From Acidobacteriaceae bacterium (GTDB lineage: Bacteria; Acidobacteriota; Terriglobia; Terriglobales; Acidobacteriaceae): a stretch of 64,000 nt of DNA. The position numbers and the translations under genes are program-made. This document shows, in pieces, positions 1 to 17,383 of the stretch; position 1 is the first letter of the stretch; every line of letters begins with the position of its first letter. The DNA lies in NCBI GenBank assembly GCA_003134655.1, contig PLBY01000077.1, forward strand, positions 95,516 to 159,515, given 5' to 3'. The notes beneath the pieces were generated by a model, which saw only the letters and a program-made list of their open reading frames with translations, did not search any database and had not been told where the DNA came from.

Positions 1-1634
1 ATGTGCAGGGCCATCGGGAGACTGAGTTCAATCTTGTCACCCGTCTTCCATACGCGGTTGAGAGCCAGATAACTGCTGGGGCTGGAAAACGCCGGTAACG
101 GGGCGCCGTTGATTTTGACGCTGCCGCCTTGGGCCCAGTACGGGATGCGAAGGTTGATCGCCAGTTGCGCCGGGCTTTTGGTGGAAACAGTAATTGTCGT
201 TCCCTGTTCCTCGGGAAAACGAGTCTCCTGTTTCAGGCGCAGACCTTTCTCAGGCCACTCCAGTTGCGAATCGATGCAGAGATTTACGTAGAGAGAATCG
301 TCGTCGTGGAAGTAGATGGTGTCGGCCAGCTTGGCGTATTCCTCTGAACCTGTGCCAGTGCAGCACCAGAACGCGTCGAGGGGCTTGCCGAACGTCTTCC
401 AATATCCCGAGGCAAGCGGCAGGTAGTACATCATTGTGCCGTCCTCCGGATTGATGGTGCCGAGGCGGTGGTTGAAGAGCGTGCGCTCGTAGTAATCCAT
501 GAGGCGGGCGTCGGGATTCCAGCCGAACAGGTGCCGGGTTAGCTTCATCATGTTGTAGGCGCAGCAGCATTCGGTGGTGCTGGGGCCAAGCTCGGTCGAC
601 AGCTTGCCGGGATCTGTGTTCCATGACTCGCCGTTGCTTGTGCCACCCGTGCAATAAGAACGCTCGCTGACCACTTCATTCCAGAAGTATTCCGCGATGT
701 CGCGATAGCGGCGTTCGCCCGTGAGTTCGTAGTAGCGCGCCGCGGCGATCACCTGCGGGATGTGCGTGTTCACATGCAGGCCTTTGAGTTCGTCACGGTG
801 AGCAGCCAGCGGATCGAAGAACTGTTTCTTGTCGAAGCGCTGCGCGATTTCGAGGTAATCCTGCTTGCCAGTGACCGCGTAGAGATTGCAGAGGAGTTCC
901 CCCATGCCTCCAAATTCGGTGCCGAGCACGCGCTGCATATGTTCGTAGCTGAGCGACTCCGTGTAGCGGTCGACCCAGGCTGCCATTTTCTGCACCATGT
1001 CGAGAGCCTGCTCGTTGCCGCAGTAGACGTACATGTCGAGAAGACCGGCCATGATCTTGTGGATGGTGTAGAAGGGAGCCCAGACCTGTTGGCGTTCGCG
1101 CAAGCGATCGAAGAATTCGATGGGGAAAGCGCTCAGGTAGCCGCTTTTCAGTGTGGCCTGGCACTGGTTGAGTCCAGCGATCACGGCGGCAGCATTGTTC
1201 TTCAGGTCTTCATCTCCGCAGGCGGCATACATGAGTGCGCACGCGGACAGATAATGGCCGCCGGCGTAGTGACCGCGGAGTTCGCAATCAGGGGCCTCCC
1301 ATCCTCCGAGCGGCTGTGCGGACGTGGGAACGCCAGCGGTGAAGCGGAAGGTATGAAGGAGACGGTCGGGAGGTAACGAGTACAGATATTGGCGGTCGGC
1401 TTCCATCGCGATCTTGCAGGGGCCGTCGCCCAGCCGTACTTGCCTTAGGGGAAAGGGTAGTGCTTTCCAGGGAACCTTCTCGCGGCTGACGGGTTTGCCA
1501 TCTTTCTGCGAGGCGTTCACGACCGGGTCTTGCATGGCGCTGGCCCTCAAGGCTCTGGGCAGGAGGGTCGATCCAGCAGCGCTCGCGGCCGCGGTCAAGA
1601 AGTGCCTGCGAGACAATGATCCGGAATGAGCCAT
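1..1634 (-). CDS. GH127 family glycoside hydrolase (beta-L-arabinofuranosidase-like, former DUF1680), 3' part outside the window
   Basis: An uninterrupted minus-strand frame gives 544 residues and runs off the left edge. The ATG at 1634 is followed by a twin-arginine-like signal (SRRHFLTAAASAAG), so the enzyme is probably exported by Tat to the periplasm. The catalytic set of GH127 is visible: a Glu-x-Cys motif (TTECCCAYN, E355 and C357) and a Cys-Cys pair (AFWCCTGTG, C424/C425). In HypBA1 of Bifidobacterium these positions bind zinc and supply the cysteine nucleophile that releases L-arabinose from beta-Araf linked to hydroxyproline. It is divergent, with a 112-bp gap, from a hydroxyproline catabolic operon, which makes a hydroxyproline-arabinoside substrate attractive. 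The family also holds other specificities, so the exact substrate is inferred. Confidence 0.88.
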   Translation of the reverse strand, partial: MAHSGSLSRRHFLTAAASAAGSTLLPRALRASAMQDPVVNASQKDGKPVSREKVPWKALPFPLRQVRLGDGPCKIAMEADRQYLYSLPPDRLLHTFRFTAGVPTSAQPLGGWEAPDCELRGHYAGGHYLSACALMYAACGDEDLKNNAAAVIAGLNQCQATLKSGYLSAFPIEFFDRLRERQQVWAPFYTIHKIMAGLLDMYVYCGNEQALDMVQKMAAWVDRYTESLSYEHMQRVLGTEFGGMGELLCNLYAVTGKQDYLEIAQRFDKKQFFDPLAAHRDELKGLHVNTHIPQVIAAARYYELTGERRYRDIAEYFWNEVVSERSYCTGGTSNGESWNTDPGKLSTELGPSTTECCCAYNMMKLTRHLFGWNPDARLMDYYERTLFNHRLGTINPEDGTMMYYLPLASGYWKTFGKPLDAFWCCTGTGSEEYAKLADTIYFHDDDSLYVNLCIDSQLEWPEKGLRLKQETRFPEEQGTTITVSTKSPAQLAINLRIPYWAQGGSVKINGAPLPAFSSPSSYLALNRVWKTGDKIELSLPMALH

Positions 1635-1676
1635 CAGTTCCTCCACGCTGAGAGTAGCAGTGCAACGGTAATGGAT

Positions 1677-1688
1677 ATTGTCTACACT
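1677..1688. promoter_or_regulatory. possible GntR-family operator in the GH127/hydroxyproline divergent promoter region
   Basis: ATTGTCTACACT lies midway in the 112-bp gap between two divergent genes and matches 10 of 12 positions of the ATTGTATACAAT type of site used by FadR-subfamily GntR regulators. Two TCGAATT copies follow at about 1694 and 1709. No regulator gene is in the window, so this rests on pattern and position alone. Confidence 0.25.
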
Positions 1689-1746
1689 AATCGTCGAATT
1701 CGCGAAACATCGAATTAGCTGCGGTGGTTTGCCTTGAGTCAATCGC

Positions 1747-2877
1747 ATGAGCGATGCGACCTTTGATGTGGTCATTGTGGGCGCCGGGATTGTGGGCGCG
1801 GCTTGTGCGGACGAGTTTGCGCGGCGCGGGATGCGGGTTGCGGTCGTGGATCGCGACGTGGTGGGCAGCGGCGCGACCGCTGCGGGGATGGGGCACATCG
1901 TCGTCATGGACGACTCCGAGGCGCAGTTTGCCTTGACTCGATACTCGCAGCAACTCTGGCAGGGACTGCGTCCCGAATTGCCAGTCGATGTCGAGTACGA
2001 ACAGTGTGGAACGATCTGGGTCGCGGCCGACGAAGAGGAAATGGCCGAGGTGCGGCGCAAGCATTCGTTTTATGCAGAGCGCGGAGTTCCGACAACGGTG
2101 CTCGACACCCAGGCTTTGAGGCGGCTGGAACCCAACCTGCGAGACGGCATGGCAGGCGGCTTGCTGGTAGGGGAGGACGTTGTGCTGTATCCGCCATGCG
2201 CGGCGCGGTTCTTGATGAAGCGTGCACAGAAACACGGCGCGGAACTTCGGCTGGGAGCAGCGGTCACAGATATTGGACAAGGGCGGATGAGGCTGTCCGA
2301 TGGTGCCGAGATCCGTGGCGCTGTGCTTGTGAATGCGGCCGGAGCCTGGGCACCGGAGCTGACCGGCGAAGTTGGGATCAAGAGGCGCAAGGGACATCTG
2401 GTGATTACCGATCGCTATCCTGGGTTTCTGAGGCACCAGTTGGTGGAACTCGGATACCTGAAGAGCGCGCACTCGGTCAGCAGCGATTCGGTCGCGTTTA
2501 ATGTGCAGCCACGGCGGACGTGGCAGATTCTGATTGGATCGTCGCGGCAATATGGGGCGGAGCATAAGGATGTGGATCAGGAAATCTTGAGACGCATGTT
2601 GCAGCGCGCTCAGAAATACATGCCGGGGCTGGGGCCGATGTCTGCGGTGCGCACATGGACTGGATTCCGCGCGGCCACGCCCGACAAGTTGCCACTGATT
2701 GGTCCGTGGCCGGGAGACAAGTCTCTGTTTCTGGCTACTGGGCATGAGGGGTTGGGGATCACGACCTCACTGGCGACGGCGAGGATTCTGGTGGATCAGG
2801 TCACCGGGGCGAAGCCCGAGATTCCGATTGAGCCGTACTTGCCATCGCGGGCGGGGAAGGAATTTACCCATGCCTGA
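1747..2877 (+). CDS. FAD-dependent oxidoreductase (DAO family), probable catalytic subunit of heteromeric D-hydroxyproline dehydrogenase
   Basis: The 376-residue protein starts with a Rossmann FAD motif (VVIVGAGIVGAACADEF, about residues 6-22) and has the overall DAO/sarcosine oxidase beta layout, ending in the FAD-proximal GHEGLGITTSLATARI segment. In the Pseudomonas aeruginosa type of D-hydroxyproline dehydrogenase a subunit of this kind oxidises cis-4-hydroxy-D-proline to 1-pyrroline-4-hydroxy-2-carboxylate and passes electrons to companion ferredoxin-like and FAD/Fe-S subunits. Both companions follow here with overlapping reading frames. The gene heads a five-gene operon. Another D-amino acid or proline-like substrate is possible, but the two downstream genes fit the hydroxyproline route well. 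Confidence 0.85.
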   Translation: MSDATFDVVIVGAGIVGAACADEFARRGMRVAVVDRDVVGSGATAAGMGHIVVMDDSEAQFALTRYSQQLWQGLRPELPVDVEYEQCGTIWVAADEEEMAEVRRKHSFYAERGVPTTVLDTQALRRLEPNLRDGMAGGLLVGEDVVLYPPCAARFLMKRAQKHGAELRLGAAVTDIGQGRMRLSDGAEIRGAVLVNAAGAWAPELTGEVGIKRRKGHLVITDRYPGFLRHQLVELGYLKSAHSVSSDSVAFNVQPRRTWQILIGSSRQYGAEHKDVDQEILRRMLQRAQKYMPGLGPMSAVRTWTGFRAATPDKLPLIGPWPGDKSLFLATGHEGLGITTSLATARILVDQVTGAKPEIPIEPYLPSRAGKEFTHA

Positions 2878-3121
2878 TTCGACGTCGGTGACGTTGAAAG
2901 TGAATGGAGTACAGGTAAGTGTGCTTGCGGGCGCAACGGTTGCGGTGGCGGTGACGGTCGCCGGACAAGCATGCCGAACCTCAGTGAGTGGCGAACCGCG
3001 CGGGCCTTTGTGCGGAATGGGGATCTGCTATGAGTGCCGGGTGTCGATCAATGGAATGCCACATTGTCGAAGCTGTCAGATCCTGTGTCAGTCAGGCATG
3101 GACGTGAGGACGGATGGGTGA
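2870..3121 (+). CDS. small [2Fe-2S] ferredoxin-like subunit of the hydroxyproline dehydrogenase (HcnA-like)
   Basis: This 83-residue protein carries the cysteine pattern of the small iron-sulfur subunit found in hydrogen cyanide synthase, opine oxidase and heteromeric proline/hydroxyproline dehydrogenases: CGMGICYECRV followed by HCRSC. The ATG at 2870 overlaps the end of the preceding gene by 8 bases, and its own 3' end overlaps the next gene by 8 bases, so the three are probably translationally coupled. It should bind one [2Fe-2S] cluster and relay electrons between the two flavin subunits. The frame is open further upstream, but residues before 2870 are antisense or shifted versions of the DAO gene and show no domain. 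Confidence 0.85.
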   Translation: MPDSTSVTLKVNGVQVSVLAGATVAVAVTVAGQACRTSVSGEPRGPLCGMGICYECRVSINGMPHCRSCQILCQSGMDVRTDG

Positions 3122-4385
3122 GGATTCGCAACCGCGCTTCGACGTTCTCGTCATCGGCGGAGGCCCGGCTGGCATCGCGGCAGCGGTGCGGGCAGCGGAG
3201 TGCGGCGTCCGCGTCGGGCTCGTGGACGACAACCCCAGCTTCGGCGGTCAAATCTGGCGAGGAGAATTTGAAAGCGGACACGACCAGAACGCCGTGCGAT
3301 GGAGTGACCTGCTGCGCAGTCCTGAGGTCACCAGGTTGTGCGGGACGAGAGTGTTTCACCAGCCGGAAGCCGGAGTCCTGCTGGCCGAGGGAAGCGACAG
3401 CGTTCGCGAATTGCGCTACCAGAATCTGGTGCTGGCAACTGGAGCGCGGGAGCGGTTTCTCCCGTTTCCCGGCTGGACCCAGCCGAACGTAATGGGGGCG
3501 GGCGGCTTGCAGGCAATGGTCAAGTCTGGATTACCGATTCGCGGCAAGCGCGTAGTCGTCGCAGGAACGGGTCCGCTGCTGTTGGCGGTAGCAGCATACT
3601 TGCATCAGCAGGGTGCCGAGGTCCCTATGATTTGCGAGCAGTCGCCGCTTGGCAGGCTGGCGCGGTTCGGCGTTGCATTGCTGGCTTATCCGGAAAAGAT
3701 CGCTCAAGGATTGCGATTGAAGAAGCAACTTGCGGGCATTCCGTTCGCCACGAACAGCTGGCCGCTGGCAGCGCACGGCGGGACGACCCTCGAAAGCGTT
3801 ACCATTTCTAGAAGCGGTAAGACGGAAGTCATCCCGTGCGACTATCTGGCTTGCGGATTTCATCTGGTCCCTAATGTGGAACTGCAGTCGCTACTGGGCT
3901 GCCAGATTAGCGGCGGCTACGTGCAGGTTGACGACCTGCAGCAGACCTCGGTCAAGCGAGTTTTCTGCGCGGGCGAGCCCACCGGTATTGGAGGCGTGGA
4001 GTTGGCGCTGGTTGAGGGGCAGATTGCCGGCCTGGCTGCTGTTGGCGAGACGAAAGCAGCGCGCAAGCTATTTGGTGAGCGGCGGAAGGCACGGCGTTTT
4101 GTGCGGATGTTGGACCGGACATTTCGCCTGCGCCCGGAACTGAGAGATTTGCCGGCAGCAGAGACGATCGTTTGTCGCTGCGAGGACGTTTCTTACTCTC
4201 GTCTGCGAGAGCATCGGTCGTGGCGCGCGGCAAAGTTGCAGACGCGGTGCGGCATGGGTCCGTGCCAGGGCCGAGTATGCGGGCCGGCCACGCAATTTCT
4301 TTTTCAGTGGAATCCAGATTCAGTGCGGCCGCCGGTGTTCCCTGCGCGCGTGGAAAGTCTGGGCGGAGTGGTTCGTACTCAGTGA
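3114..4385 (+). CDS. NAD(P)/FAD-dependent oxidoreductase with BFD-like [2Fe-2S] domain, large subunit of the hydroxyproline dehydrogenase (HcnB-like)
   Basis: The 423-residue protein has an N-terminal FAD motif (VLVIGGGPAGIAAA, about residues 10-24), a second dinucleotide-binding motif (VVVAGTGPLLLAVAA, near residue 147) and a C-terminal BFD-type iron-sulfur domain with C354-x-C356 and CGMGPCQGRVC from residue 379. This is the alpha-subunit architecture of heteromeric D-hydroxyproline, opine and cyanide-forming dehydrogenases, in which the subunit moves electrons from the catalytic flavin to the respiratory chain. The start at 3114 overlaps the ferredoxin gene by 8 bases. The final Fe-S motif is intact and no damage is visible. 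Confidence 0.85.
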   Translation: MGEDSQPRFDVLVIGGGPAGIAAAVRAAECGVRVGLVDDNPSFGGQIWRGEFESGHDQNAVRWSDLLRSPEVTRLCGTRVFHQPEAGVLLAEGSDSVRELRYQNLVLATGARERFLPFPGWTQPNVMGAGGLQAMVKSGLPIRGKRVVVAGTGPLLLAVAAYLHQQGAEVPMICEQSPLGRLARFGVALLAYPEKIAQGLRLKKQLAGIPFATNSWPLAAHGGTTLESVTISRSGKTEVIPCDYLACGFHLVPNVELQSLLGCQISGGYVQVDDLQQTSVKRVFCAGEPTGIGGVELALVEGQIAGLAAVGETKAARKLFGERRKARRFVRMLDRTFRLRPELRDLPAAETIVCRCEDVSYSRLREHRSWRAAKLQTRCGMGPCQGRVCGPATQFLFQWNPDSVRPPVFPARVESLGGVVRTQ

Positions 4386-4401
4386 TGAGGAGGGTGTATC
4401 G

Positions 4402-5325
4402 ATGAACTGGAAGGGCGTGATGCCCGCAATCACCACGTGCTTCAACAACGACCTCAGCATCGATCACGCCTTCATGGTGAAGCACTGTCGCTTGCTTCTC
4501 GACAATGGCTGCACCGGAATCGTGGCCCTTGGGTCACTGGGTGAAGGTGCAACTTTGACGGTGGAAGAAAAGGTAGCGGTGCTCCGCACCTGCGTCAAAT
4601 CCGTTCATGGGTGCGGTCCGGTGGTGGCGGCCATCTCGGCACTTTCGACCGCGGAGGCGGTGTCGCTGGCGAAAGTTGCGATGAATCTGGGTTGCGACGG
4701 GCTGATGGTTCTGCCTCCTTATGTGTACAAGGGCGACTGGCGCGAGATGAAGGCCCACGTTGCCGCGGTATTTAAGGCTACGTCCCTGCCCTGCATGCTC
4801 TACAACAATCCCGTGGCCTACGGGACGGATTTTCTTCCGGAGCAGATTCGCGAACTGGCGGCGGAGCATGAGAATCTCGCAGCGGTGAAAGAGTCGAGCA
4901 CGGATGTGCGGCGCGTTTCTGCGATCCGCGCGCTACTGGGCAGTCGGCTTGAGATTTGCGTGGGCGTGGATGACGCTGTGCTGGAGGCCATCGGAGTGGG
5001 AGCAACCGGATGGATTGCCGGCCTGGCGAATGCGCTTCCGCACGAGTCGGTGGAACTGTTCAACTGCGGAATCAATGGGGAGACCGATAAGGCTTTTGAG
5101 ATCTATCGCTGGTTCCTGCCTTTGTTGCGCATGGACACAGTCCCAAATTTCGTTCAACTCATCAAACTGGTGCAAGCGGAAGCAGGAATAGGAAATGCGC
5201 GGGTTCGGCCGCCACGCCTCGAATTGGTGGGGCAGGAACTCGATCAGACCAGGAAAATCATCCGTGACGCGTTGCAGTCCCGGCCACAGTCCGTGGGCAG
5301 CTATGCGCTACCGACAGGAAAATAA
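4402..5325 (+). CDS. DapA-family lyase, probable 1-pyrroline-4-hydroxy-2-carboxylate deaminase
   Basis: The 307-residue protein is a dihydrodipicolinate synthase/N-acetylneuraminate lyase family barrel. Visible landmarks are GSLGEGATLT near residue 45, the tyrosine in LYNNPVAYG, and the Schiff-base lysine in AAVKESS. In the bacterial hydroxyproline pathway such an enzyme deaminates and dehydrates 1-pyrroline-4-hydroxy-2-carboxylate to alpha-ketoglutaric semialdehyde. A close relative in the family, L-2-keto-3-deoxyarabonate dehydratase, makes the same product from arabinose. A strong ribosome site (GAGGAGGG at about 4387) precedes the ATG. The stop codon abuts the ATG of the next gene. Context favours the hydroxyproline function. 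Confidence 0.85.
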   Translation: MNWKGVMPAITTCFNNDLSIDHAFMVKHCRLLLDNGCTGIVALGSLGEGATLTVEEKVAVLRTCVKSVHGCGPVVAAISALSTAEAVSLAKVAMNLGCDGLMVLPPYVYKGDWREMKAHVAAVFKATSLPCMLYNNPVAYGTDFLPEQIRELAAEHENLAAVKESSTDVRRVSAIRALLGSRLEICVGVDDAVLEAIGVGATGWIAGLANALPHESVELFNCGINGETDKAFEIYRWFLPLLRMDTVPNFVQLIKLVQAEAGIGNARVRPPRLELVGQELDQTRKIIRDALQSRPQSVGSYALPTGK

Positions 5326-6921
5326 ATGCTGGCATCTAAAACAAAACTCGCAGGGCGGTCGCTGATCGGATTTCGGGAAGGAACCGGTGTGGGAGAGGCG
5401 ATGTACGCGACGAATCCCGCGACCGGCGAACGTTTGCAGCCGGGCTTCATTCCGGCCACGGCAGAAGAAGTGGACCTGGCGGCTCGACTCGCCACGGAGG
5501 CATTCGAAGTCTACCAGCGCGTTTCGGGGCGGGACCGCGGCGCCTTCCTGCGCACGATTGCAGCGAAGATCGAATCAATCGCAGGGGACGTAATCGAGCG
5601 CGCTGCGCAGGAAACAGCTCTGCCACAGGCGCGTTTGCAAGGAGAAACCGCGCGCACCTGTGCGCAGCTTCGGCTGTTTGCGCAGGTGGCGGAAGAGGGA
5701 TCGTGGGTGCAGGCGCGCATCGATCGTGCCGTTCCCGATCGCAAGCCCGCGCCCAAACCTGATATTCGCTCGATGCTGCGGCCGCTGGGGCCCGTGGTGG
5801 TGTTCGGTGCCAGCAATTTTCCAATGGCGTTCTCCGTCGCCGGAGGAGACACCGCTTCCGCGCTCGCGGGCGGCAATACCGTGATCGTGAAGGCGCACGC
5901 CGCGCATCCCGGGACCAGCGAACTGGTGGGTCGCGCCGTGCAGGAGAGTGTTCGCGAATGCGGCCTTCCCGAGGGAGTGTTCTCACTTCTGTTTGGCAGC
6001 GGCCTGCAGATTGGCACGGCGTTGATGAAGCATCCTCTGGTGAAGGCGGGGGGATTCACCGGTTCGCGCGCCGCCGGAAGAACCCTGATGGACGTGGCGG
6101 CGTCGCGCCCCGAGCCGATTCCGTTTTATGCGGAGATGAGCAGCACGAATCCGGTGTTCATTCTGCCGGGCGCGTTGCGGGAGCGTGGCGAAAACATTGC
6201 TACAGGACTGCACGGGTCGTTCACACTCGGAGCGGGACAATTTTGCACCAAGCCGGGCATGATCTTTCTGCCGCAAGGTCCCGACGCTGCCGCATTCGCC
6301 AAGAAGTTGTCGCAACTGGTTGAGGCGTCGACTTCGTTTCATCTTCTGACCAAGTCGATTCACTCTTCGTATGACGCGTCGGTTGCCACGCGCAAGAACG
6401 ACGAGTCGGTCAAACTGGTTGCGGAGGGCCCGCAAGTGGCGGCGGATGCGAGTTTCGCCGTTAGTTCCGTGCTGTTCCAAACAGATGCCGCGTCGTTTCT
6501 CGGATCGGAGTTGGATGCGGAGATCTTCGGCCCCACAACTCTTCTCGTACAGCATTCCAGCAGAGATCAGGTGCTGGCGATCGCCCGCTCGCTCGAAGGC
6601 CACTTGACGGCCACGATTCACGGCACGGAACAGGACCTGCGTGAGTTTGCCGATCTGATTGCGATTCTCGAAGGCAAAGTTGGACGCCTCGTCGTTAACG
6701 GGTTTCCGACCGGCGTTGAAGTCACGCATGCCATGGTGCATGGAGGACCGTATCCTTCGACATCAGATGGACGGTCCACGTCCGTAGGAAGCCAAGCGAT
6801 TTTCCGGTTCACGCGTCTGGTCTGTTATCAGGGATTTCCAAACAGCGCGCTGCCCGATGCGCTAAAAGACGGCAATCCGCTGGGCATTTGGCGAATGCTG
6901 GACGGGGAGATGTCACGCTAG
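5326..6921 (+). CDS. alpha-ketoglutaric semialdehyde (2,5-dioxovalerate) dehydrogenase, ALDH family
   Basis: The 531-residue aldehyde dehydrogenase shows features of the KGSA dehydrogenase subgroup: NPATGERLQPGF near the N-terminus, VVFGASNFPMAFSVAGGDTA, the catalytic glutamate in EMSSTNP and the catalytic cysteine in GAGQFCTKPG. It oxidises alpha-ketoglutaric semialdehyde to 2-oxoglutarate with NAD(P)+, the last step of both hydroxyproline and non-phosphorylative L-arabinose breakdown. The ATG immediately follows the stop of the lyase gene, so the two are coupled. It is the last gene of the operon, and convergent with the serine hydrolase gene to its right. Confidence 0.93.
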   Translation: MLASKTKLAGRSLIGFREGTGVGEAMYATNPATGERLQPGFIPATAEEVDLAARLATEAFEVYQRVSGRDRGAFLRTIAAKIESIAGDVIERAAQETALPQARLQGETARTCAQLRLFAQVAEEGSWVQARIDRAVPDRKPAPKPDIRSMLRPLGPVVVFGASNFPMAFSVAGGDTASALAGGNTVIVKAHAAHPGTSELVGRAVQESVRECGLPEGVFSLLFGSGLQIGTALMKHPLVKAGGFTGSRAAGRTLMDVAASRPEPIPFYAEMSSTNPVFILPGALRERGENIATGLHGSFTLGAGQFCTKPGMIFLPQGPDAAAFAKKLSQLVEASTSFHLLTKSIHSSYDASVATRKNDESVKLVAEGPQVAADASFAVSSVLFQTDAASFLGSELDAEIFGPTTLLVQHSSRDQVLAIARSLEGHLTATIHGTEQDLREFADLIAILEGKVGRLVVNGFPTGVEVTHAMVHGGPYPSTSDGRSTSVGSQAIFRFTRLVCYQGFPNSALPDALKDGNPLGIWRMLDGEMSR

Positions 6922-7043: not shown

Positions 7044-8951
7044 CTACGCCCAAGTGCGCAATCCGATGATGCCCCAGTAGGCGAGGTAGGCGGCGGCGAT
7101 CAGCAGGGCGAGCGTGACCATCCGCGAATACCTGCGCACGCCGCGCCGAACTACATCCAGCGGCGCGCGCCACACAGAGATGGCGCTCGCGAGTGAGGCG
7201 ATGGCGAAGGCAACCGTCGAAACGCACACGGCGACGGACCATCCGGTCAGGTTTCCCAGGCGATCGATCAGATCAGCACTGCACACAATGATGAGGCCCA
7301 CGAATGTGATCAGGCTAAGGACGGCCAACAATGGCCAGAGGCGCATGCCGCGCTCGGCCGGGCGACGGCGTCTTTTCCTGAGGCCGCCGAGAATCCAGAA
7401 CGGAGCATAGAGGAGGATCGACACCATCGACAGAAGAACAAACGCGGTTACTACAATCTGCGTGATGGCCATCCAGGCCGGAATGCGCTTCATCGTAGCG
7501 CCCATCCCAACCTGCAGAAATCGGCCGTCTTGGTTCGGAGTCAGCAACTCAAACGTTGCCACTCGGTCAGGCGCATCCTCTCTTTTCTTTGGCACGTGAC
7601 GGAATTGGGTACCGGACACCGGGGCGTAGGTTTCGTTCCATGCGCCGAGCAGGTCGAGAAGCAGATTGCCGTCCTTGAAGCGAACGTAGGTGACGCCCAC
7701 CAGACGCTCGAGAAAGTGCGTCAGCTCGACGCGCGGCGAATCCGGCACGTACCATCCCGCGTAGTCGGCTGCGACCGCAGGCAGCGTCGCGACAGGAGGC
7801 AGAGGCGGCTTTTCCAGTTTGCTGGCGATGTAAGCGCGAATCGCTTTGCCGACCTTTTCAAAGGCGTCTCCATTGCCGCTGTTGATGCTGAAGAAATAGC
7901 CGACGTTGTAGTCCGCCATATAGGACATTTCGGTGAGGCCGCCTTCAACGCCGCCGTCGTGTCCGTGAAACACAAATCCGTCTTCCACACTCCAGTAATT
8001 GCTCAGGCCATATCCGGCCTTCATTCCATCTTTTGCGGCCCAAGTGCTGGCGGGACTCTCGGCGCGATCGATGTCGGCGGAGGGCACGATCTGTTTCCCG
8101 CTCACCGCGCCGCGATTCAGATAGAACTGCACATATGCCGCCATGTCGTTGGCGGAAGCATTGATCGATCCGGCAGGGCGCAACAGAATGTGCCAGTACG
8201 GGTACGGAGTCTTGCCGTCGTTGTGATAGAGAGTGGTCGCAGGAGACGACTGGAAATAGTTTGCCGTCTTCATCCCGATGGGGCGGAATAGGTTCTGCTC
8301 GACGAAATCTTCAAAGCGCTGCCCGGTGATTTTCTCGACGATGTAGGCGGCAACGGGCGGCCCGGAATTGCAATAGGCCATGCGGGTGCCCGGGCGCCAT
8401 CGCGAGGTGCGCGAATGGTGGTCGTAGTCGAGGCCATCACGCAGGCTCATGGAGTCGGGAGCCTGCTTCGCATACTCACGCAGGTGCATGTCGTCCCAAC
8501 CGGTAGTGTGCTCGAGCAAATTGACGACTCGTATTGGATCAGTGGCCTCCCACTGATTCTCGAACCAGACATCGGGAACGAGTTTGTGAACCGGATCATC
8601 GAGCGACAGCTTGCCTTGATCCGCCAGCATCAGGATCGACAGGGACGCAAACGCTTTTGACGTGGAGCCGATGCGGAAGAGCGTATCTGGTGTGTTCGCT
8701 CGAGAACTGGCAACGTCCGCGGTGCCTAAGCCGGCAACCCACTCTGGTGCGTCGCGATGCACGATGGCCACGGATACTCCCGGCGTATGCGTGTCCTTGA
8801 GAATCTTTTCCAGTTGCTGGCGCAGTTCGTCGATCGATTGCGCCGGCTTCGGCTTCTCATCTTTCTTGTCGGCTTTGTCCGCCGCTTGATCCGCCGCCAG
8901 GCAGAGGGGAGTGAGCACCGCAAGCAGTACCACCGGAATCATCCATTTCAC
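7044..8951 (-). CDS. serine hydrolase of the class C beta-lactamase family with C-terminal membrane segments
   Basis: The 635-residue protein begins with a signal peptide ending near LCLAADQ, followed by a beta-lactamase/penicillin-binding fold: SxxK in GSTSKAF (S96/K99) and the tyrosine motif in YCNSG. After about residue 490 there are four predicted membrane helices separated by an arginine-rich linker (LRKRRRRPAERG). The combination is typical of acidobacterial membrane-anchored esterase/peptidase relatives of AmpC whose substrates are unknown; I do not call it a resistance enzyme. It lies 57 bp downstream of cysE on the same strand and could be co-transcribed, with no obvious functional link to cysteine synthesis. 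Confidence 0.85.
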   Translation of the reverse strand: MKWMIPVVLLAVLTPLCLAADQAADKADKKDEKPKPAQSIDELRQQLEKILKDTHTPGVSVAIVHRDAPEWVAGLGTADVASSRANTPDTLFRIGSTSKAFASLSILMLADQGKLSLDDPVHKLVPDVWFENQWEATDPIRVVNLLEHTTGWDDMHLREYAKQAPDSMSLRDGLDYDHHSRTSRWRPGTRMAYCNSGPPVAAYIVEKITGQRFEDFVEQNLFRPIGMKTANYFQSSPATTLYHNDGKTPYPYWHILLRPAGSINASANDMAAYVQFYLNRGAVSGKQIVPSADIDRAESPASTWAAKDGMKAGYGLSNYWSVEDGFVFHGHDGGVEGGLTEMSYMADYNVGYFFSINSGNGDAFEKVGKAIRAYIASKLEKPPLPPVATLPAVAADYAGWYVPDSPRVELTHFLERLVGVTYVRFKDGNLLLDLLGAWNETYAPVSGTQFRHVPKKREDAPDRVATFELLTPNQDGRFLQVGMGATMKRIPAWMAITQIVVTAFVLLSMVSILLYAPFWILGGLRKRRRRPAERGMRLWPLLAVLSLITFVGLIIVCSADLIDRLGNLTGWSVAVCVSTVAFAIASLASAISVWRAPLDVVRRGVRRYSRMVTLALLIAAAYLAYWGIIGLRTWA

Positions 8952-10748: not shown

Positions 10749-11208
10749 CTGAAGTGCACGCCTCCAGCGTTTGTCGGCGGCAGTTTCCGCGCCGATTTCG
10801 TTGAGTCCAGTAATACTACCAACATAGTGGATATTGCGAGGGAGCAGTCACTGCAAAGGAAAAAATCGACAACACAGAACCCTCCCATTCCTGATCCATG
10901 ATTAGCCCGAGCGCTGGTCATTTTCGACTCTCTCGCGCCAGACAAGACGCATAAAAGTTCCGAACATTTAGCTCGGCTCCCGCTACAAATTCGGGCTCGC
11001 AATCATGCATCTCGAGCCAAATCAAACACTTACATGGAAGTCCATCGGAATACTGAATCGATACAATTACGACTTGTTTTTGTGCAGTCAATGGTGTTAG
11101 TGTTCCCGACCTATTAGCGGGTTTTCGGGTTGACCTGCACACTGTTTGCGGTTTTTCGCGCAGCGTCGATACCTGAATCCCAGGGGCCTCACAACAGCAA
11201 GACATGTT
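10749..11208. other. intergenic region between cysK and the TonB receptor gene
   Basis: About 460 bases with no coding frame that I trust. The cysK-proximal part holds an imperfect dyad at 10813-10834 (CACTA and TAGTA half-sites 6 bases apart on the minus strand), which resembles Rrf2/CymR-type sites of sulfur genes but is a weak match. The part near the receptor is AT-richer (10980-11080), and a TTGACC at about 11129 could be a -35 element. I cannot place a convincing -10 box. Confidence 0.4.
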
Positions 11209-11229
11209 TTCCGCGCGATTGGCGCGGAA
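11209..11229 (+). promoter_or_regulatory. hairpin in the leader of the TonB receptor gene
   Basis: TTCCGCGC and GCGCGGAA form a perfect 8-bp stem with a GATTG loop. The stem ends 13 bases before the AGGAGGG ribosome site of the receptor gene, so it would lie in the mRNA leader. It could affect mRNA stability or translation. There is no T-run, so it is not a terminator. Confidence 0.4.
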
Positions 11230-11255
11230 TCTCTCTCGTTCCAGGAGGGTTTGTA

Positions 11256-14200
11256 ATGCGCATGCGTCAGCAGATTTTCTCTTCTCTATCCGCAGTTCTC
11301 ATCCTCTGTTCCGCCCTGCTGTGGCTGAGCAGCGTTTCGCCCGTCTGGGCTCAATCGACATCATCGGGCACAATCTCCGGAACCGTGACCGACGCGAGCG
11401 GCGCGGTTGTGAATGGCGCCACAGTCATGCTCACCGACGTTTCCACGAAGACCAGCCACTCGGTCACTACGAACGACACAGGCCGGTACGTGATGGTCGA
11501 TATTGCCCCCGGCAACTACGACCTCGTCATCAGCAAGCAAGGCTTCTCCACTACCAAGACGCAAACGACGGTGAAGGTCGGAATCGCGACGACCGTCAAC
11601 CTGTCTCTGCAGGTCGGAGGCAGCAACATTGTGGTGGAGGTGACGGCGGTCGGTAACGAACTGCAGACGATGAACGCCACGGTTGGTAATACGATCACCA
11701 GTGCCGCGCTGGACGCGCTACCGAGCATCGGCCGCGATGTCAGCAGCTTTGTCGAACTGCAACCCGGAGTCAGTCCGGAAGGCAGCGTCGCCGGAACCGT
11801 GAATGATCAGACCTTCTTCTCGCTCGACGGCGGCAACAACACCAACGACATGGACGGCAACATGTCCACCTACACCGCTAGCTACGCGGGCGATCCGACG
11901 GGTGGTGTTGCGGCGCAAAATACTCTTTACCTGACAGGTCAGCCGACAGGCGTACTGCCGACGCCACAAGATAGCGTTGAGGAATTCAAAGTCAACACCG
12001 CGGGCCAGACCGCGGACTTCAACAGCTCCTCGGGCGCCGAAGTGAAAGTCGTCACCAAGCGCGGCACAAACTCCTGGCACGGGACGGCTTATGAATATTA
12101 TCTAGACAACAACTGGTCATCGAACTCCTGGCAGAATAACTACAATCAGGCCATTAGCGGTTCCGCGTCGGGCAATCTCCCCAGTTTCCATTACAACCGC
12201 TACGGCGGCGCAATCGGCGGGCCGATCATCCCCATGGACCTTGTCGGGGGGAAGACCTACTTCTTCTTCAACTACGAAGGATTTCACTTCGGCAACTCCT
12301 CGACCATTTACCGGAACGTACCTTCTCCCGCTCTGCAGCTGGGACTGCTGACCGATACGACGACGGGAGCGGTTTACAACCTGAATCCAACTTCAGTGAC
12401 GTACAACGGCAACACATATCCTGGCACGGCCTATGACCCGCGAGGCATAGGAATTAACTCGATGGTCCAGCAGGTATGGAGCAAGTACATGCCGGCCAGC
12501 AACTACTCTTGCTTCTACTCCCAGTGCGACGGCGTGAACGTGCTGGGGTACTCGGCCAATGTGAGTCTGCCCCAAACCAGCAAGTTCATGGTCGGGCGGT
12601 TGGATCACGACTTCTCCAAGAACTGGCACTTCATGTCGACCTATCGCTATTTCAAACTGTCGAACGCGACCGCTGACCAGGTAGATATTGGAGGCTTCTT
12701 TACGGGAGACGCAGTCGGGACACCGGTTTCCCAGTCCAGCGATCCGCAGCAAGCATGGATTTGGGTGGCAGGCCTAACGACCAACATCACTCCGAACGTT
12801 ACCAATGATTTTCATTACAGCTTTTTGCGCAACTGGTGGCAATGGGGCAGGGCCGGAGATACACCTCAACTGCCGGGGCTGGGAGGAGCACTGGAAATAT
12901 TCTCTGGCGAGTCTCACACCCAAAACCTTGGCCCCTACAACGTAAATACACAGCAAACTCGTACGCGTTTCTGGGACGGCCACGATCAGATGTTCCGCGA
13001 CGACGTCAGCATGCTGAAAGGGAATCACCTGCTCGCTTTCGGCGGCCAGTATCAGCACAACTTCAACTGGCATCAACGCACCGACAATGGCGGCGGTATC
13101 AACTATCAGCCCGTGTACCAACTCGGGCTGGGCTCTTCGGGTTCGGGCCTTGCGGCCGACCCCTCTTTCTGCGCCACGGCAAGCATCCCGAACTGCGGCT
13201 CTCTGGCGGCCGCCACTCTAGGTATCGTTTCCCTATCCCAGATCGCCTACACACGCTCCGGTTCGAATCTTACCTTGAACCCGCCGCTGACCCCCGCATT
13301 CGACCAGAGCACCATTCCGTACTACAACGTGTATCTGACGGACACCTGGCACATGAAGCCAAGCTTCACCCTGACTTACGGCTTGGGCTGGACTTTGGAG
13401 ATGCCGCCGGTCGAGAAGAACGGAAAGCAGGTCGAACTTGTAGACGGAGCCAATCAGTTGGTCAGCGAGGAGACCTACATCCACTCACGCGAACAGGCTG
13501 CTCTGCAGGGCCAGGTCTACAATCCAGTTGTTGGGTTTAACCTCGTCGGAAATACGGCGAACGGCCTGAAATACCCTTACAACCCCTATTACGGCTCGTT
13601 CAGTCCACGCATCGCCGCCGCGTGGAATCCTCACTTTGATACTAGCTCCATGATGGGCAAGATATTCGGCGGGCAAGATACCGTCATTCGTGGCGGCTAT
13701 GGGCGCGTGTTCGGACGCTTGAACGGCGTGGACTTGGTCTTGGTGCCGCTGCTGGGTACCGGATTGATTCAGCCGGTGCAATGCTTCGGCAACCTCAGCA
13801 ATGGCACCTGCGGCGCAGCAGGCAGTGCCTCCCTCACGTCTGCGTTCCGCGTCGGAACAGACGGCCTGACCGCTCCCATCCCAGCGGCCAGTCAGACCCT
13901 TCCGCAGCCAGACTTCCCCGGCTACAACGCCATAGCGGCGGGCGCGGGCGAATCTCTCGATCCTAATTTCCGACCCAACGTAGTGGACTCTTTCGACCTC
14001 ACGATTCAGCGTCAGCTGTCGAAGAAAGTGACTGTCGAGGTCGGGTACATCGGGCGCAGGATTACGCACGAATATCAACCCATCAACATCAATGCAGTCC
14101 CTTACATGATGACGCTGGGTGGGCAGAGATTCGATCAGGCGTATAAGAATGTCGTACTACAGTACTGCGGCGGCATCTCGGGGCTGGCAGGTGGAGGTTG

Positions 14201-15314
14201 TGCAAAGACCGCGGGTGCCGTCACTAGTCAGCCTTTCTTCGAGGCTGCCCTTGCCGGCACGGGTTATTGCGCTCCTGGGACCTGTACCGCGACGGTGGTA
14301 GCCAACGAGGGCGGCAACTTTGCCAATCAACAAGTCTGGACGTTGTGGAGCGATTTGGATGGTGGCGTCGGGTGCCCTGTTGCGGGCTGCTCCTCTCCAA
14401 CTGGTGGGCCAGATGCCTTTAACTTCCCTCGCAGCATGATGAATACCCCCATTCCTGGCTCCTCATTCGGCGGTCAAGGTCAGCTCACGTCGGGCGTGGG
14501 AGTAAACGCCAGTGTGGGCTATGGGAATTACAATGCGGGCTTTGTCTCGCTCAAGATGAACGAATGGAAAGGATTGACTCTGCAGTCGAACTTCACGTAC
14601 TCCAAAGCGCTAGGCACAGGTGCCCTGGTTCAAGCAACCAGCGCATATACGCCGAACGATCCCTTCAACGCGGATAACATGTATGGCCGTCAGTTCTACG
14701 ACCGCAAGTTCGTGTACAACACGTTCTTCGTTTACAGCCCGCCGTTCTACAAGGGTCAGGCGGGCGCTATGGGACGCCTGCTGGGTGGCTGGACGTTCTC
14801 CTCGATCTTTACAACAGGGAGCGGCCAACCCATCGAAATCTTCACCACCACCGGCGATGGTCAGGAATTCGGGGCCGGAGACAACGTCAACTTCTTCGGC
14901 CTGGAAACCGCGGTTCCAACCGGGCCGATTCAAAGCGGCCATGCGTACCACACGGCCGGCTCGCCCGGCTTCGGCGACGGCGGCTTGCCTGTGAACATAT
15001 TCGCGGATCCGACTAAGGCTTACGCCTCCTACCGCAATCCGGTCCTGGGGCTGGACAACAAGAACACCAGCTATCTCAACGGCCTGGCGTACTGGAATAT
15101 CGACTTCAGCGTCCGGAAAAACATAAGAATTACCGAGGGAGTTTCCTTCGAAATTCAAGGTGTCTTTGCCAACATTTTCAACCACAACCAGTGGCTCGAC
15201 CCAGTGGGCATGGGTATGTTCGCGCCAAGCTCTTTCGGGAACCTGCTCGGCTCGGCGCAAGAGAATACGGGTGGAAACCGGTCGATCCAGATAGGCGGAC
15301 GCATCCGGTTCTAG
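11256..15314 (+). CDS. Oar-type TonB-dependent receptor with carboxypeptidase regulatory-like N-terminal domain
   Basis: The ATG at 11256 sits 6 bases after AGGAGGG and begins a clear signal peptide ending at VWAQ; a TTG 126 bases upstream is open but lacks a signal. The 1352-residue product starts with a carboxypeptidase-regulatory/CnaB-like fold (SGTISGTVTDASGAVVNGA), then a plug with a glycine-rich segment and a very long outer-membrane barrel ending in an aromatic residue (IQIGGRIRF), as required for BAM-dependent insertion. In Acidobacteriota dozens of such proteins are thought to take up oligosaccharides or peptides. No substrate-specific neighbour is evident. A terminator follows at 15358. 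Confidence 0.93.
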   Translation: MRMRQQIFSSLSAVLILCSALLWLSSVSPVWAQSTSSGTISGTVTDASGAVVNGATVMLTDVSTKTSHSVTTNDTGRYVMVDIAPGNYDLVISKQGFSTTKTQTTVKVGIATTVNLSLQVGGSNIVVEVTAVGNELQTMNATVGNTITSAALDALPSIGRDVSSFVELQPGVSPEGSVAGTVNDQTFFSLDGGNNTNDMDGNMSTYTASYAGDPTGGVAAQNTLYLTGQPTGVLPTPQDSVEEFKVNTAGQTADFNSSSGAEVKVVTKRGTNSWHGTAYEYYLDNNWSSNSWQNNYNQAISGSASGNLPSFHYNRYGGAIGGPIIPMDLVGGKTYFFFNYEGFHFGNSSTIYRNVPSPALQLGLLTDTTTGAVYNLNPTSVTYNGNTYPGTAYDPRGIGINSMVQQVWSKYMPASNYSCFYSQCDGVNVLGYSANVSLPQTSKFMVGRLDHDFSKNWHFMSTYRYFKLSNATADQVDIGGFFTGDAVGTPVSQSSDPQQAWIWVAGLTTNITPNVTNDFHYSFLRNWWQWGRAGDTPQLPGLGGALEIFSGESHTQNLGPYNVNTQQTRTRFWDGHDQMFRDDVSMLKGNHLLAFGGQYQHNFNWHQRTDNGGGINYQPVYQLGLGSSGSGLAADPSFCATASIPNCGSLAAATLGIVSLSQIAYTRSGSNLTLNPPLTPAFDQSTIPYYNVYLTDTWHMKPSFTLTYGLGWTLEMPPVEKNGKQVELVDGANQLVSEETYIHSREQAALQGQVYNPVVGFNLVGNTANGLKYPYNPYYGSFSPRIAAAWNPHFDTSSMMGKIFGGQDTVIRGGYGRVFGRLNGVDLVLVPLLGTGLIQPVQCFGNLSNGTCGAAGSASLTSAFRVGTDGLTAPIPAASQTLPQPDFPGYNAIAAGAGESLDPNFRPNVVDSFDLTIQRQLSKKVTVEVGYIGRRITHEYQPININAVPYMMTLGGQRFDQAYKNVVLQYCGGISGLAGGGCAKTAGAVTSQPFFEAALAGTGYCAPGTCTATVVANEGGNFANQQVWTLWSDLDGGVGCPVAGCSSPTGGPDAFNFPRSMMNTPIPGSSFGGQGQLTSGVGVNASVGYGNYNAGFVSLKMNEWKGLTLQSNFTYSKALGTGALVQATSAYTPNDPFNADNMYGRQFYDRKFVYNTFFVYSPPFYKGQAGAMGRLLGGWTFSSIFTTGSGQPIEIFTTTGDGQEFGAGDNVNFFGLETAVPTGPIQSGHAYHTAGSPGFGDGGLPVNIFADPTKAYASYRNPVLGLDNKNTSYLNGLAYWNIDFSVRKNIRITEGVSFEIQGVFANIFNHNQWLDPVGMGMFAPSSFGNLLGSAQENTGGNRSIQIGGRIRF

Positions 15315-15357
15315 CTCATCAACCTGAAGGCGTTGCAATTACGCCATCCATAACATG

Positions 15358-15391
15358 AAGGGCCGCACCTGAGGGTGCGGCCTTTCATTTT
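15358..15391 (+). terminator. rho-independent terminator after the TonB receptor gene
   Basis: GGCCGCACC (15361-15369) pairs with GGTGCGGCC (15374-15382) around a TGAG loop and is followed by TTTCATTTT. It lies 44 bases after the receptor stop codon. Confidence 0.85.
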
Positions 15392-15415
15392 GCTTGCCCG
15401 AAGTGTATGGGAGGC

Positions 15416-15904
15416 TTACCGGTGTGCCAACCCGAAGGCCACAGCACCCGCTGAGCTTCCGATGTTGACCAGGCAGACCGCGCGCTCCAGTTTGTGATGA
15501 CCGGTTTTGTGGAAGAAGTAACTGAGACCAATCACTCCGGCGGTTTCACCAATAAAATTCACTGCCAGTCCCGCCGTGGAGGTCCCGAATACACGAACGA
15601 TCGGATTCAGTTCCTGTCCGCCACTTTGCAGGTTGGCGCGGGTCACGGCGAAGTCGGCACCGTTGAACGCGGCGGCGGCGATGAACAGTTCGCGATTCTC
15701 CCTGTCCAAGAACCTGTGCTCCGAGCTTGCGACCGGCGGTATAAGGACGACGGGCGTCACAGGCTCAAGTGCAGGGCTGGGTGCTTCCGGTAACAATGCG
15801 GATGCGAGTAGAGCTTGGGCATGGACCGTCGAACAAAGGCAGCTGCCCACAGCCAGAACGCTGACGCTGTACCCGATATACCTTGCGAATCTGCGCAGGA
15901 TCAT
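15416..15904 (-). CDS. small secreted or membrane protein, unknown function
   Basis: The frame encodes 162 residues from the ATG at 15904, or 171 from a GTG at 15931; the ATG gives a clean signal peptide (ending STVHAQA) and is preferred. After a proline-rich linker the sequence has a conserved-looking core (FNGADFAVTRANLQSGGQ, then ELNPIVRVFG) and two glycine/alanine-rich hydrophobic stretches near the C-terminus that may be membrane helices. I do not recognise the family with confidence. It stands alone between the receptor terminator and the amidohydrolase gene. Confidence 0.6.
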   Translation of the reverse strand: MILRRFARYIGYSVSVLAVGSCLCSTVHAQALLASALLPEAPSPALEPVTPVVLIPPVASSEHRFLDRENRELFIAAAAFNGADFAVTRANLQSGGQELNPIVRVFGTSTAGLAVNFIGETAGVIGLSYFFHKTGHHKLERAVCLVNIGSSAGAVAFGLAHR

Positions 15905-16066
15905 AAGTGCCCGCCGAGGTCGGCGTAGCACTCTGGAAGGGGCAAACGGGGGGCCGCCTGTCCATCATTAAAATCGCGGCAACCTCCCCGTAATCAAGCA
16001 CTTGATTGTCATTTCTAATGAGAATCGCAGGCGCCTGTGCATTGTTTTGCAGGTTGCGCCGGGCAT

Positions 16067-17383
16067 TTACCTATTGAGCGCGGGAGAGCCTATCTTGTAA
16101 ATAACGCCGCCCTTCATCACAAAGCTAACGTTCTGAAGCGCGCTGATGTCCTGTAGAGGATCCCCCGGCACGGCAACGACGTCCGCGAAGTACCCGGCCT
16201 GCAGCGCGCCGATCTGCCCGTCCCAGCCGAGTAGCTTTGCGCCGTTCAGCAGGTCCGCTTGCAACACGACGAGTGGCGACATGCCGTACTTCACCATCAG
16301 GACAAATTCACGGGCCTGCGTGCCGTGGGGAAACGGGCCGACGTCGGATCCCAAGGCCATCGGCACTCCCGCCGCGATCTGCTTTTTGAATTCCTTCGCC
16401 TTCACGTCGAGCATCTGGCGCTGGTGCGCGCCTTGTTCGGACGTGGCGGCGTGGTCGGCGAAATATTCGAAGATCGTGAACGTGGGCACCGCGAAGATCT
16501 GCTTCTCCTTCATCAGACGCATGGTCTCGTCGCTTAGCTGGTCGGCATGGTCGATCGAAACCACTCCTGCCTGCGCGGCAAAAAGCGTTCCCGGCTCTCC
16601 AGTGGCGTGTACGGCTACGCGGCGATCCAGACGCGCCGCTTCTTTCACCGCGGCCTCCAATTGTGGCTCGGTGTACTGATATGGAGTCGAGAGTCGTCCG
16701 TCCTTTAGCGAATCCGCCCCGGTCTCGTAGATCTTGATGAAGTCGGCGCCTTCCTTGAACTGCTGGCGCATGACCGCAACCAGTTCGTCGGTGCTGTCGG
16801 CGTAATTCGCGTTGGGCAGGACGTGCTGCTCGGGGTTGTAGCCGAGGGCGTCTTCGTGGCCACCGAGGATGTTGATTGCGTTGCCGCTGATGCGCAACCG
16901 CGGACCGGGGATGCGGCCTTCGCTAATCGCGTTGCGCACAGCGGTGTCGGCCGATCCCGCACCTTCGGTCCCCATGTCGCGCTCCGCGGTGAAACCGGCC
17001 ATCAGGTCATCGCGCGCCGCCAGCGTGGCCGTGATAGTGCGCTCCGGCACCGATTCCTGCACAGTCTGCAGATCTTCCGCGCCAGGATGGAGGAAAAGAT
17101 GGATGTGCGCGTCGATCAGGCCGGGAAGCAGCGTACGGTCACCCAAGTCGATGACCTCGGCGTCAGCCGGACGATTGACTGAAGTCCCCACTTCGACGAT
17201 GCGTTCGCCTTGGACGAGGATTTCACCTGGCTTGAGCATGCGTCCGGTCTTGATGTCCAGCAGGCGCGCCGCATGCAGCACGATCGGATGGGACGGCACG
17301 GGCTGAGACTGGCCGGCGACATTCGTGGCAAAAATCAAACAGAGCAGAGAGACTGAGGTGAGAGCGAGGCTTCGGTGCGTCAT
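16067..17383 (-). CDS. secreted metal-dependent amidohydrolase (imidazolonepropionase-like)
   Basis: The 438-residue protein begins at the ATG at 17383 with a signal peptide ending NVAGQ. The amidohydrolase metal site is visible: HxH in GLIDAHIHLFLH, a carboxylated-lysine candidate in FIKIYETGA, histidines in VAVHATGEPGT and SIDHADQ, and the catalytic aspartate in ALGSDVGPFPHG. Relatives hydrolyse N-acyl amino acids, Xaa-Pro dipeptides or cyclic imides; specificity cannot be read from sequence. The frame stays open upstream of 17383, but that part covers a REP-like repeat and has no domain. It is one of three similar secreted enzymes in this window (see 52570 and 55014). Confidence 0.88.
   Translation of the reverse strand: MTHRSLALTSVSLLCLIFATNVAGQSQPVPSHPIVLHAARLLDIKTGRMLKPGEILVQGERIVEVGTSVNRPADAEVIDLGDRTLLPGLIDAHIHLFLHPGAEDLQTVQESVPERTITATLAARDDLMAGFTAERDMGTEGAGSADTAVRNAISEGRIPGPRLRISGNAINILGGHEDALGYNPEQHVLPNANYADSTDELVAVMRQQFKEGADFIKIYETGADSLKDGRLSTPYQYTEPQLEAAVKEAARLDRRVAVHATGEPGTLFAAQAGVVSIDHADQLSDETMRLMKEKQIFAVPTFTIFEYFADHAATSEQGAHQRQMLDVKAKEFKKQIAAGVPMALGSDVGPFPHGTQAREFVLMVKYGMSPLVVLQADLLNGAKLLGWDGQIGALQAGYFADVVAVPGDPLQDISALQNVSFVMKGGVIYKIGSPALNR

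Follow-up and report, generated by a model that had tools for sequence, protein, structure and literature searches.

The stretch of DNA analysed here, referred to as the window, comprises 64,000 nucleotides of an Acidobacteriaceae bacterium (GenBank assembly GCA_003134655.1, contig PLBY01000077.1; in our numbering C145:95516-159515). The draft genome spans 8.05 Mb in 164 contigs and is 99.52% complete, with 5.23% contamination. A gene for a β-L-arabinofuranosidase-type glycosidase lies on the minus strand at 3-1634, and a unit of five genes for hydroxyproline degradation runs in the opposite direction on the plus strand at 1747-6921. The two are separated by a divergent intergenic region of 112 bp (1635-1746), as described in a first-pass annotation of the sequence, which had proposed that together they would release the sugar and use the amino acid of plant hydroxyproline-O-arabinosides. 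We found that this link between sugar and amino acid genes is not private to the genome.

The five plus-strand genes were packed tightly: neighbours either overlapped by 8 bp or stood 0-16 bp apart. The first three encode the subunits of a D-hydroxyproline dehydrogenase: a beta subunit of the DAO family (1747-2877; PF01266, 237.4 bits), an 83-residue 2Fe-2S gamma subunit of the Fer2_4 type (2870-3121; PF13510, 71 bits; start set by eye), and an alpha subunit of the NAD/FAD oxidoreductase type (3114-4385; PF07992, 101.8 bits). In the alpha subunit, the PF04324 match (20.4 bits) stayed below the cut-off of 26, and the likeness to soxA was also below cut-off. These were followed by a protein of the dihydrodipicolinate synthase (DHDPS) family (4402-5325; PF00701, 193.4 bits; dapA model 183.9, below its cut-off of 206) and an aldehyde dehydrogenase (5326-6921; PF00171, 161.8 bits; best PDB match 1eyy, 7.8e-139). 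The best NCBIfam model for the latter was alpha-ketoglutaric semialdehyde dehydrogenase, at a score far below the cut-off. Because NCBIfam gave none of the hydroxyproline proteins in the window a name above cut-off, the last two were assigned by context as the deaminase and the alpha-ketoglutarate semialdehyde dehydrogenase. Apart from the BFD domain of the alpha subunit, which was below cut-off, the domains and their order were those of SCO6289-6292 in Streptomyces coelicolor, SCO6289-6291 corresponding to the dehydrogenase. The DHDPS and aldehyde dehydrogenase pair was also considered as part of an oxidative arabinose pathway. This was ruled out because the dehydrogenase trio precedes the pair and a hydroxyproline epimerase gene lies upstream in 47 of 54 regions of relatives. 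The DAO gene was the only match in the genome at E<=1e-40. A search of the divergent region for a sigma-70-type promoter gave no match, and a single terminator-like match was found at 1743-1759, against a chance expectation of 0.4.

The glycosidase gene covers the N-terminal and catalytic parts of the enzyme, beginning with a twin-arginine signal (PF07944, 388.6 bits; PF20736, 94.6 bits), and extends past the left window edge. A two-N scaffold gap directly left of position 1 (L007 10514-10515) interrupts its 3' part. Beyond this gap, a 94-residue reading (C145 95274-95555) matched the C-terminus of the GH146-type family, and comparison by eye with the relative in locus L076 suggested that about 23 residues are concealed. 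Since the C-terminal reading picks up again after the gap, the interruption looks like an assembly gap, and the reading as a broken gene was rejected. Three characterised enzymes were compared with the window enzyme, namely BT0349 (5opj, the best PDB match), Bll3HypBA1 and HypBA1 (3wkw). They were matched at 1.5e-94, 2.6e-52 and 1.6e-13 in a single-sequence search, and at 1.1e-146, 3.3e-95 and 7.5e-25 with a profile of 14 relatives. By these scores the glycosidase is of the glycoside hydrolase family GH146 type, and HypBA1 (GH127) is only a remote relative. The first-pass annotation had labelled it a GH127 with all catalytic residues of the HypBA1 type; the label was not upheld, but the residues were. 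E355, C357, C424 and C425, which line up with the ETC and CC motifs of 5opj as the Cys3-Glu zinc site with the catalytic cysteine, were invariant among 14 aligned sequences, as were R9 and R10. Enzymes of GH127 and GH146 that act on other substrates are described as keeping these residues too (PMC10850190), so the residues cannot single out hydroxyproline (Hyp) arabinosides. According to the available text of the sources, XeHypBA1 and Bll4HypBA1 of GH146 act on arabinofuranose (Araf) linked as Araf-β1-Hyp (PMC10850190, PMC6085000). Bll3HypBA1, also of GH146, is said there to act on β1,3-Araf and to degrade arabinogalactan proteins, and BT0349, from a rhamnogalacturonan I (RG-I) locus, to be active on arabinan-derived oligomers (PMC10850190). 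Membership of GH146 is compatible with a Hyp-arabinosidase and is no proof of one; Araf-β-Hyp is the putative substrate of the window enzyme.

The linkage between the two gene sets was examined in 150 genomes of the order, 57 of which carried DAO, the dehydrogenase beta subunit. By score against the GH146 query, and at thresholds that we set, homologues were divided into clade A (at least 540 bits), clade B (270-540 bits) and distant paralogues (below 200 bits). Clade A comprised 42 copies in 39 of the 150 genomes. Within 25 kb of DAO lay 15 of the 32 clade A copies in DAO genomes (14 genomes; 0.35 expected), 7 of the 12 clade B copies (0.12 expected) and 2 of the 46 distant paralogues (0.44 expected), where the expectation is random placement and ignores the kinship of the genomes. 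For clades A and B together, the count was 22 of 44 copies, with 0.47 expected. The linked genomes made up 21 of the 57 DAO genomes and belonged to two families under 13 genus labels, and their gene orders varied. A synteny search in other genomes had been suggested by the first-pass annotation, and this result shows a neighbourhood that extends well beyond one genome. The four enzymes nearest to that of the window, in G087 (84% identical), G118, G146 and G109, were all linked, at 7.8-20.7 kb, while the next two, the copy in G007 and the copy on contig C9 of the same genome, were not. The tight divergent GH146-dehydrogenase pair was seen in this genome only, and the next nearest pair was 1.1 kb apart, in G071.

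For the recurrent neighbours, regions of 20 kb on each side of DAO were fetched from 54 of the 57 genomes, several of them clipped by contig ends; G025, G100 and G139 were omitted for having their matches at contig ends. Owing to a long 5' reading that overlaps DAO, the window GH146 was passed over by the gene caller and is missing from the gene clustering of these regions; the linkage counts above were taken from a separate analysis. The most frequent partners were the deaminase (49 of 54 regions), the epimerase directly upstream of the dehydrogenase (47), the aldehyde dehydrogenase (28), a GntR regulator (26) and GH146 (17, the window's own not counted). An outer-membrane barrel protein (16), dipeptidyl peptidase IV (DPP-IV; 16), an amino-acid permease (15), the uncharacterised domain family DUF5695 (13) and DUF885 (12) came next. 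GH27 (8), sortilin/BNR (7), GH31 (6), GH43 (6) and a second unassigned family, here called F41 (3), were less frequent. Twenty conserved neighbour families were annotated, with Pfam names taken from one representative each.

DUF5695 (PF18951) was found above 1200 bits in 20 of the 150 genomes, and all 20 also carried DAO, compared with 57 of 150 overall (Fisher p=3e-10). Thirteen copies lay within 20 kb of DAO and one at 34 kb; 17 were within 20 kb of a GH127/146-family match, one of which was a distant paralogue. A wider sample of the phylum gave DUF5695 at E<=1e-100 in 9 of 199 genomes, five of them outside the family of the window. In a scan of GTDB contigs, the best 80 of 325 relatives were kept, many in short loci, and score thresholds and phylum labels for this tally were set by us. 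Among these 80 loci, 37 had GH146, 52 had GH146 or at least one hydroxyproline gene, and 20 had at least two of the four hydroxyproline genes. The 20 were spread over Acidobacteriota (13 of 49), Verrucomicrobiota (3 of 6), Bacteroidota (3 of 13) and unclassified loci (1 of 2). No locus with at least two such genes occurred in Gemmatimonadota (0 of 5), Armatimonadota (0 of 3), Aminicenantes (0 of 1) or Planctomycetota (0 of 1) within the same set. DAO scores outside Acidobacteriota were often weak, at about 80-110 bits. The occurrence of these loci in other phyla further argues against a neighbourhood peculiar to one genome.

The predicted model of DUF5695 (mean predicted local distance difference test score, pLDDT, 85.4; predicted template modelling score, pTM, 0.88) showed a β-sandwich followed by (α/α)6-type helices. 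In Foldseek it matched the rhamnose-glucuronate lyase BACCELL_00875 of family PL27 at E=4.4e-29, with a TM score of 0.61 (query) and 0.78 (target). According to the accessible text on that enzyme, it is a lyase acting on rhamnose caps that frees rhamnose from gum arabic (PMC8377490). DUF5695 is thus predicted to fold like PL27, although the two share only 16% identity and a profile of 13 DUF5695 sequences matched BACCELL_00875 weakly (E=0.029). The F41 model matched GH78, GH94, GH127, GH121 and others at E values of 1e-7 to 1e-4 with TM scores below 0.45; these matches are weak because the mean pLDDT of the model was 69. In several Granulicella-type genomes a second, divergent DUF5695-like protein of about 150 bits adjoins the main one (G028, G084, G137 and locus L246, 6711-9905).

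Several individual loci illustrate the association. Plasmid pACIX901 of Granulicella tundricola MP5ACTX9 carries, in one stretch, two genes annotated as β-L-arabinofuranosidase/GH127 together with a hydroxyproline unit of aldehyde dehydrogenase, proline racemase family, three dehydrogenase subunits and DHDPS family. The same stretch contains two barrel-type proteins, two DUF885, two M1 peptidases, GntR, a Tat protein and a TIM-barrel protein. The Mucilaginibacter locus L240 combines GH146, deaminase, aldehyde dehydrogenase, epimerase, a DAO-type protein, AraC, DUF5695 and M1, and the Flavobacterium pectinovorum locus L259 has a permease, DPP-IV, GH146, DUF885, DUF5695, GH42 and an M24 peptidase. 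As separate observations, a peptidylprolyl isomerase is encoded in the pACIX901 locus (L264 23976-24644) with aminopeptidase P next but one, signs of a proline-rich substrate, and L259 encodes a 731-residue protein (14957-17152) for which Pfam gave nothing at E<=1e-5. In the window itself, a serine β-lactamase-like hydrolase (PF00144) follows the hydroxyproline unit on the opposite strand (7044-8951). An outer-membrane barrel protein with a carboxypeptidase-regulatory domain is encoded at 11130-15314; its close relative stands near DAO in G135 only, and we claim no link to the locus.

The joining of sugar release to amino acid use, as first proposed, held for the gene link, repeated in 13 genera, but not for a complete unit in the window, since no hydroxyproline epimerase gene lies beside it. 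Two PF05544 genes were found elsewhere in the genome, on contigs C55 and C68. The C68 product was closest to PA1268 (3.9e-123) and 4j9w (5.9e-117), the latter taken as a hydroxyproline epimerase (PMC4364671), and matched proline racemase at 6.4e-44. Its 440.2 bits fell 2 bits short of the NCBI 4-hydroxyproline epimerase cut-off of 442. Around it, C68:63577-86006 (L011, L176 and L177) holds a second hydroxyproline set of epimerase, deaminase and aldehyde dehydrogenase, together with a barrel protein, DPP-IV, F41, GH27, GntR, GH146 and DUF5695; the family search found no DAO on this stretch. The window is a fragment, and the fuller gene set sits on C68. Next to the barrel gene, at C68:86101-91036, are FG-GAP/ASPIC-UnbV and TPR genes (families F20 and F21) that recur in related loci and are perhaps barrel partners.

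Left of the window, C145 encodes AraD (L-ribulose-5-phosphate epimerase; 336.1 bits, subfamily cut-off 257, below the stricter TIGR00760) and AraB (ribulokinase; 545.5 bits, cut-off 428, below the stricter TIGR01234). A sodium-solute symporter and a Fucose_iso_C isomerase, to which no specificity was assigned, are also present, and an acyltransferase-SGNH gene separates the arabinose genes from GH146. In the same-genus genome G070, AraD, symporter and isomerase adjoin DAO without GH146. Arabinose genes as a conserved part of the locus were unsupported beyond 3 of 54 regions; their position flanking GH146 is suggestive for this genome and implies no general rule.

The genes, their domains and order, and the linkage across genera and phyla were observed directly. 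From these we infer, with a probability of about two in three, that the window is one of two loci jointly enabling the use of arabinosylated hydroxyproline-rich glycoproteins of plants, foremost extensin. Extensin is described as having Ser-Hyp3-5 repeats with Hyp-β-Araf chains that end in α-1,3-Araf, and Ser-linked α-Gal (PMC7933510, available text), and the gene set fits this glycoprotein part for part, the amino-acid permease included. The substrate, the order of steps and the parts played by DUF5695 and F41 are put forward as a model. Exported glycosidases would remove the glycan: the GH27 α-galactosidase the Ser-linked α-Gal, GH43 in some relatives the terminal α-Araf, and GH146 the β-Araf down to the residue on hydroxyproline, with DUF5695 and F41 performing further steps. 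The bared chain would then be cut by proline-type peptidases, namely DPP-IV and, in relatives, also aminopeptidase P, M1 and DUF885. L-hydroxyproline would be epimerised by the C68 or C55 gene product, oxidised by the three-subunit dehydrogenase of the window, deaminated and oxidised to alpha-ketoglutarate, while arabinose would be fed into the pathway of AraB and AraD, whose genes lie left of GH146. Possible substrates also include arabinogalactan proteins and arabinosylated peptides. The chances seem evenly balanced that this represents a multi-phylum locus for hydroxyproline-rich glycoproteins, combining deglycosylation, proline-type proteolysis and hydroxyproline catabolism, in which DUF5695, with its PL27-like fold, and F41, weakly like (α/α)6 glycosidases, cut Hyp- or Ser-linked plant glycans.

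A number of observations weigh against this interpretation. C68 and C145 are tied only by their place in one draft genome, which has 5.23% contamination. C68 might still come from a contaminant; its tetranucleotide correlation with C145 was 0.959, within the 0.945-0.977 spanned by same-genus regions. Within the genus, linkage besides the window was seen only in G087, at 20.7 kb, and 20 of the 57 DAO genomes had neither clade A nor clade B. Co-occurrence per genome was not discriminating and was dropped as proof of a link, because the control paralogues also co-occur with the dehydrogenase (odds ratio 6.2 versus 8.6). The enrichment of GH27 was modest (8 seen, 2.42 expected), and GH27 is common in these genomes. 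Near DAO, arabinose genes were scarce, with isomerase and symporter in 3, AraD in 2 and AraB in 1 of the 54 regions. Neither GH146 nor a hydroxyproline gene was present in the DNA covered for 28 of the best 80 DUF5695 loci. Among the 27 unlinked clade A copies, 20 were examined: three had DUF5695 and one more had DPP-IV and GH27, and the other 16 had no DUF5695, F41, GH27 or DPP-IV nearby. Four unlinked loci were probed with Pfam (10 proteins), and three had an α-L-arabinofuranosidase (PF06964) and one an S15 X-Pro dipeptidyl-peptidase. With such other neighbours, clade A is used in more than one setting.

Another reading is that GH146 serves arabinan, RG-I or RG-II or other β-Araf glycans here, and that it came to stand by the hydroxyproline unit through an accident local to this genome, or within an arabinose gene cluster abutting that unit. 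The RG-I origin of BT0349, the best solved match, the α-L-arabinofuranosidase genes beside unlinked copies, and G070, where arabinose genes adjoin the dehydrogenase without GH146, all agree with it. An accident is nevertheless difficult to reconcile with half of the close copies in DAO genomes lying near DAO, in 13 genera and differing gene orders, while distant paralogues do not, and with linkage in all four of the enzymes nearest to that of the window, though not in the next two. We regard this explanation as doubtful. It is unlikely, too, that the loci act mainly on arabinogalactan proteins, with DUF5695 cleaving rhamnose-glucuronate caps as a PL27-like lyase, GH146 and GH27 trimming side chains, and hydroxyproline derived from the same proteins. 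The structural match to a gum arabic enzyme and the activity of Bll3HypBA1 would suit such a role. However, the Pfam names given to the 20 annotated neighbour families, which are only a sample, included no β-1,3-galactanase, glucuronidase or rhamnosidase, though a GH42 gene occurred in one Flavobacterium locus, and GH27 suits the Ser-α-Gal of extensin. A role of the hydroxyproline unit in the use of free hydroxyproline or animal collagen, with unrelated glycosidases nearby, is very improbable: a putative collagenase belongs to the S. coelicolor hydroxyproline regulon (PMC6608401, available text) and a close GH146 is missing from 20 of the 57 dehydrogenase genomes, but the dehydrogenase is repeatedly linked with GH146 and DUF5695 and no collagenase was among the same 20 family names.

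Arabinosylated hydroxyproline-rich glycoproteins as the probable substrate invite comparison with systems already described. The HypBA system of Xanthomonas euvesicatoria (xehypBA1, xehypBA2-AA) and Bifidobacterium longum (HypBA1, HypBA2, HypAA, Bll4HypBA1) likewise includes a GH146 for Araf-β1-Hyp and is aimed at Hyp-linked arabinan. In the available text, however, it ends with free arabinose, and no hydroxyproline degradation, proline-type peptidases or DUF5695 are mentioned with it, unlike here (PMC6085000, PMC10850190). HypBA2 (GH121) was not identified in our material, where no direct search for it was made. The S. coelicolor unit SCO6289-6293 under HypR has the same order of DAO, Fer2_4, alpha subunit and DHDPS deaminase, and most relatives of the window unit resemble it further in the upstream epimerase and, in 26 of 54 regions, a GntR regulator. 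That unit is partnered with a putative collagenase, whereas here the partners are glycosidases and the window unit lacks the epimerase; an S. coelicolor mutant deleted for the neighbouring epimerase gene SCO6293 reportedly no longer grows on L-Hyp (PMC6608401, available text). Hydroxyproline neighbourhoods of the proline racemase superfamily similarly combine epimerase with DAO, DHDPS and aldehyde dehydrogenase families, but the accessible part of that study mentions no glycosidase link (PMC4113996). The nearest earlier idea that we found is a proposal of extensin use by Latescibacteria, in which a GH127 was read from the genome as an extensin arabinosidase; it rests on the presence of GH127, and a cluster with hydroxyproline degradation is not mentioned in the available text (PMC4454575). 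Among the titles and abstract openings listed by searches of an open-access library, which leaves most subscription journals outside, no locus joining hydroxyproline degradation with these glycosidases was found.

The locus suggests which substrates DUF5695 and F41 might be given in assays. Strains in which these could be tried are Granulicella tundricola MP5ACTX9, Granulicella mallensis X5P3, Mucilaginibacter species and Flavobacterium pectinovorum. Extensins and their kin are tough, nitrogen-bearing parts of the plant wall, and the bacterial HypBA enzymes, as far as the sources describe them, end at the sugar. If our interpretation is true, a locus coupling sugar removal, peptide cleavage and hydroxyproline use would show a route by which soil bacteria gain both carbon and nitrogen from such glycoproteins.

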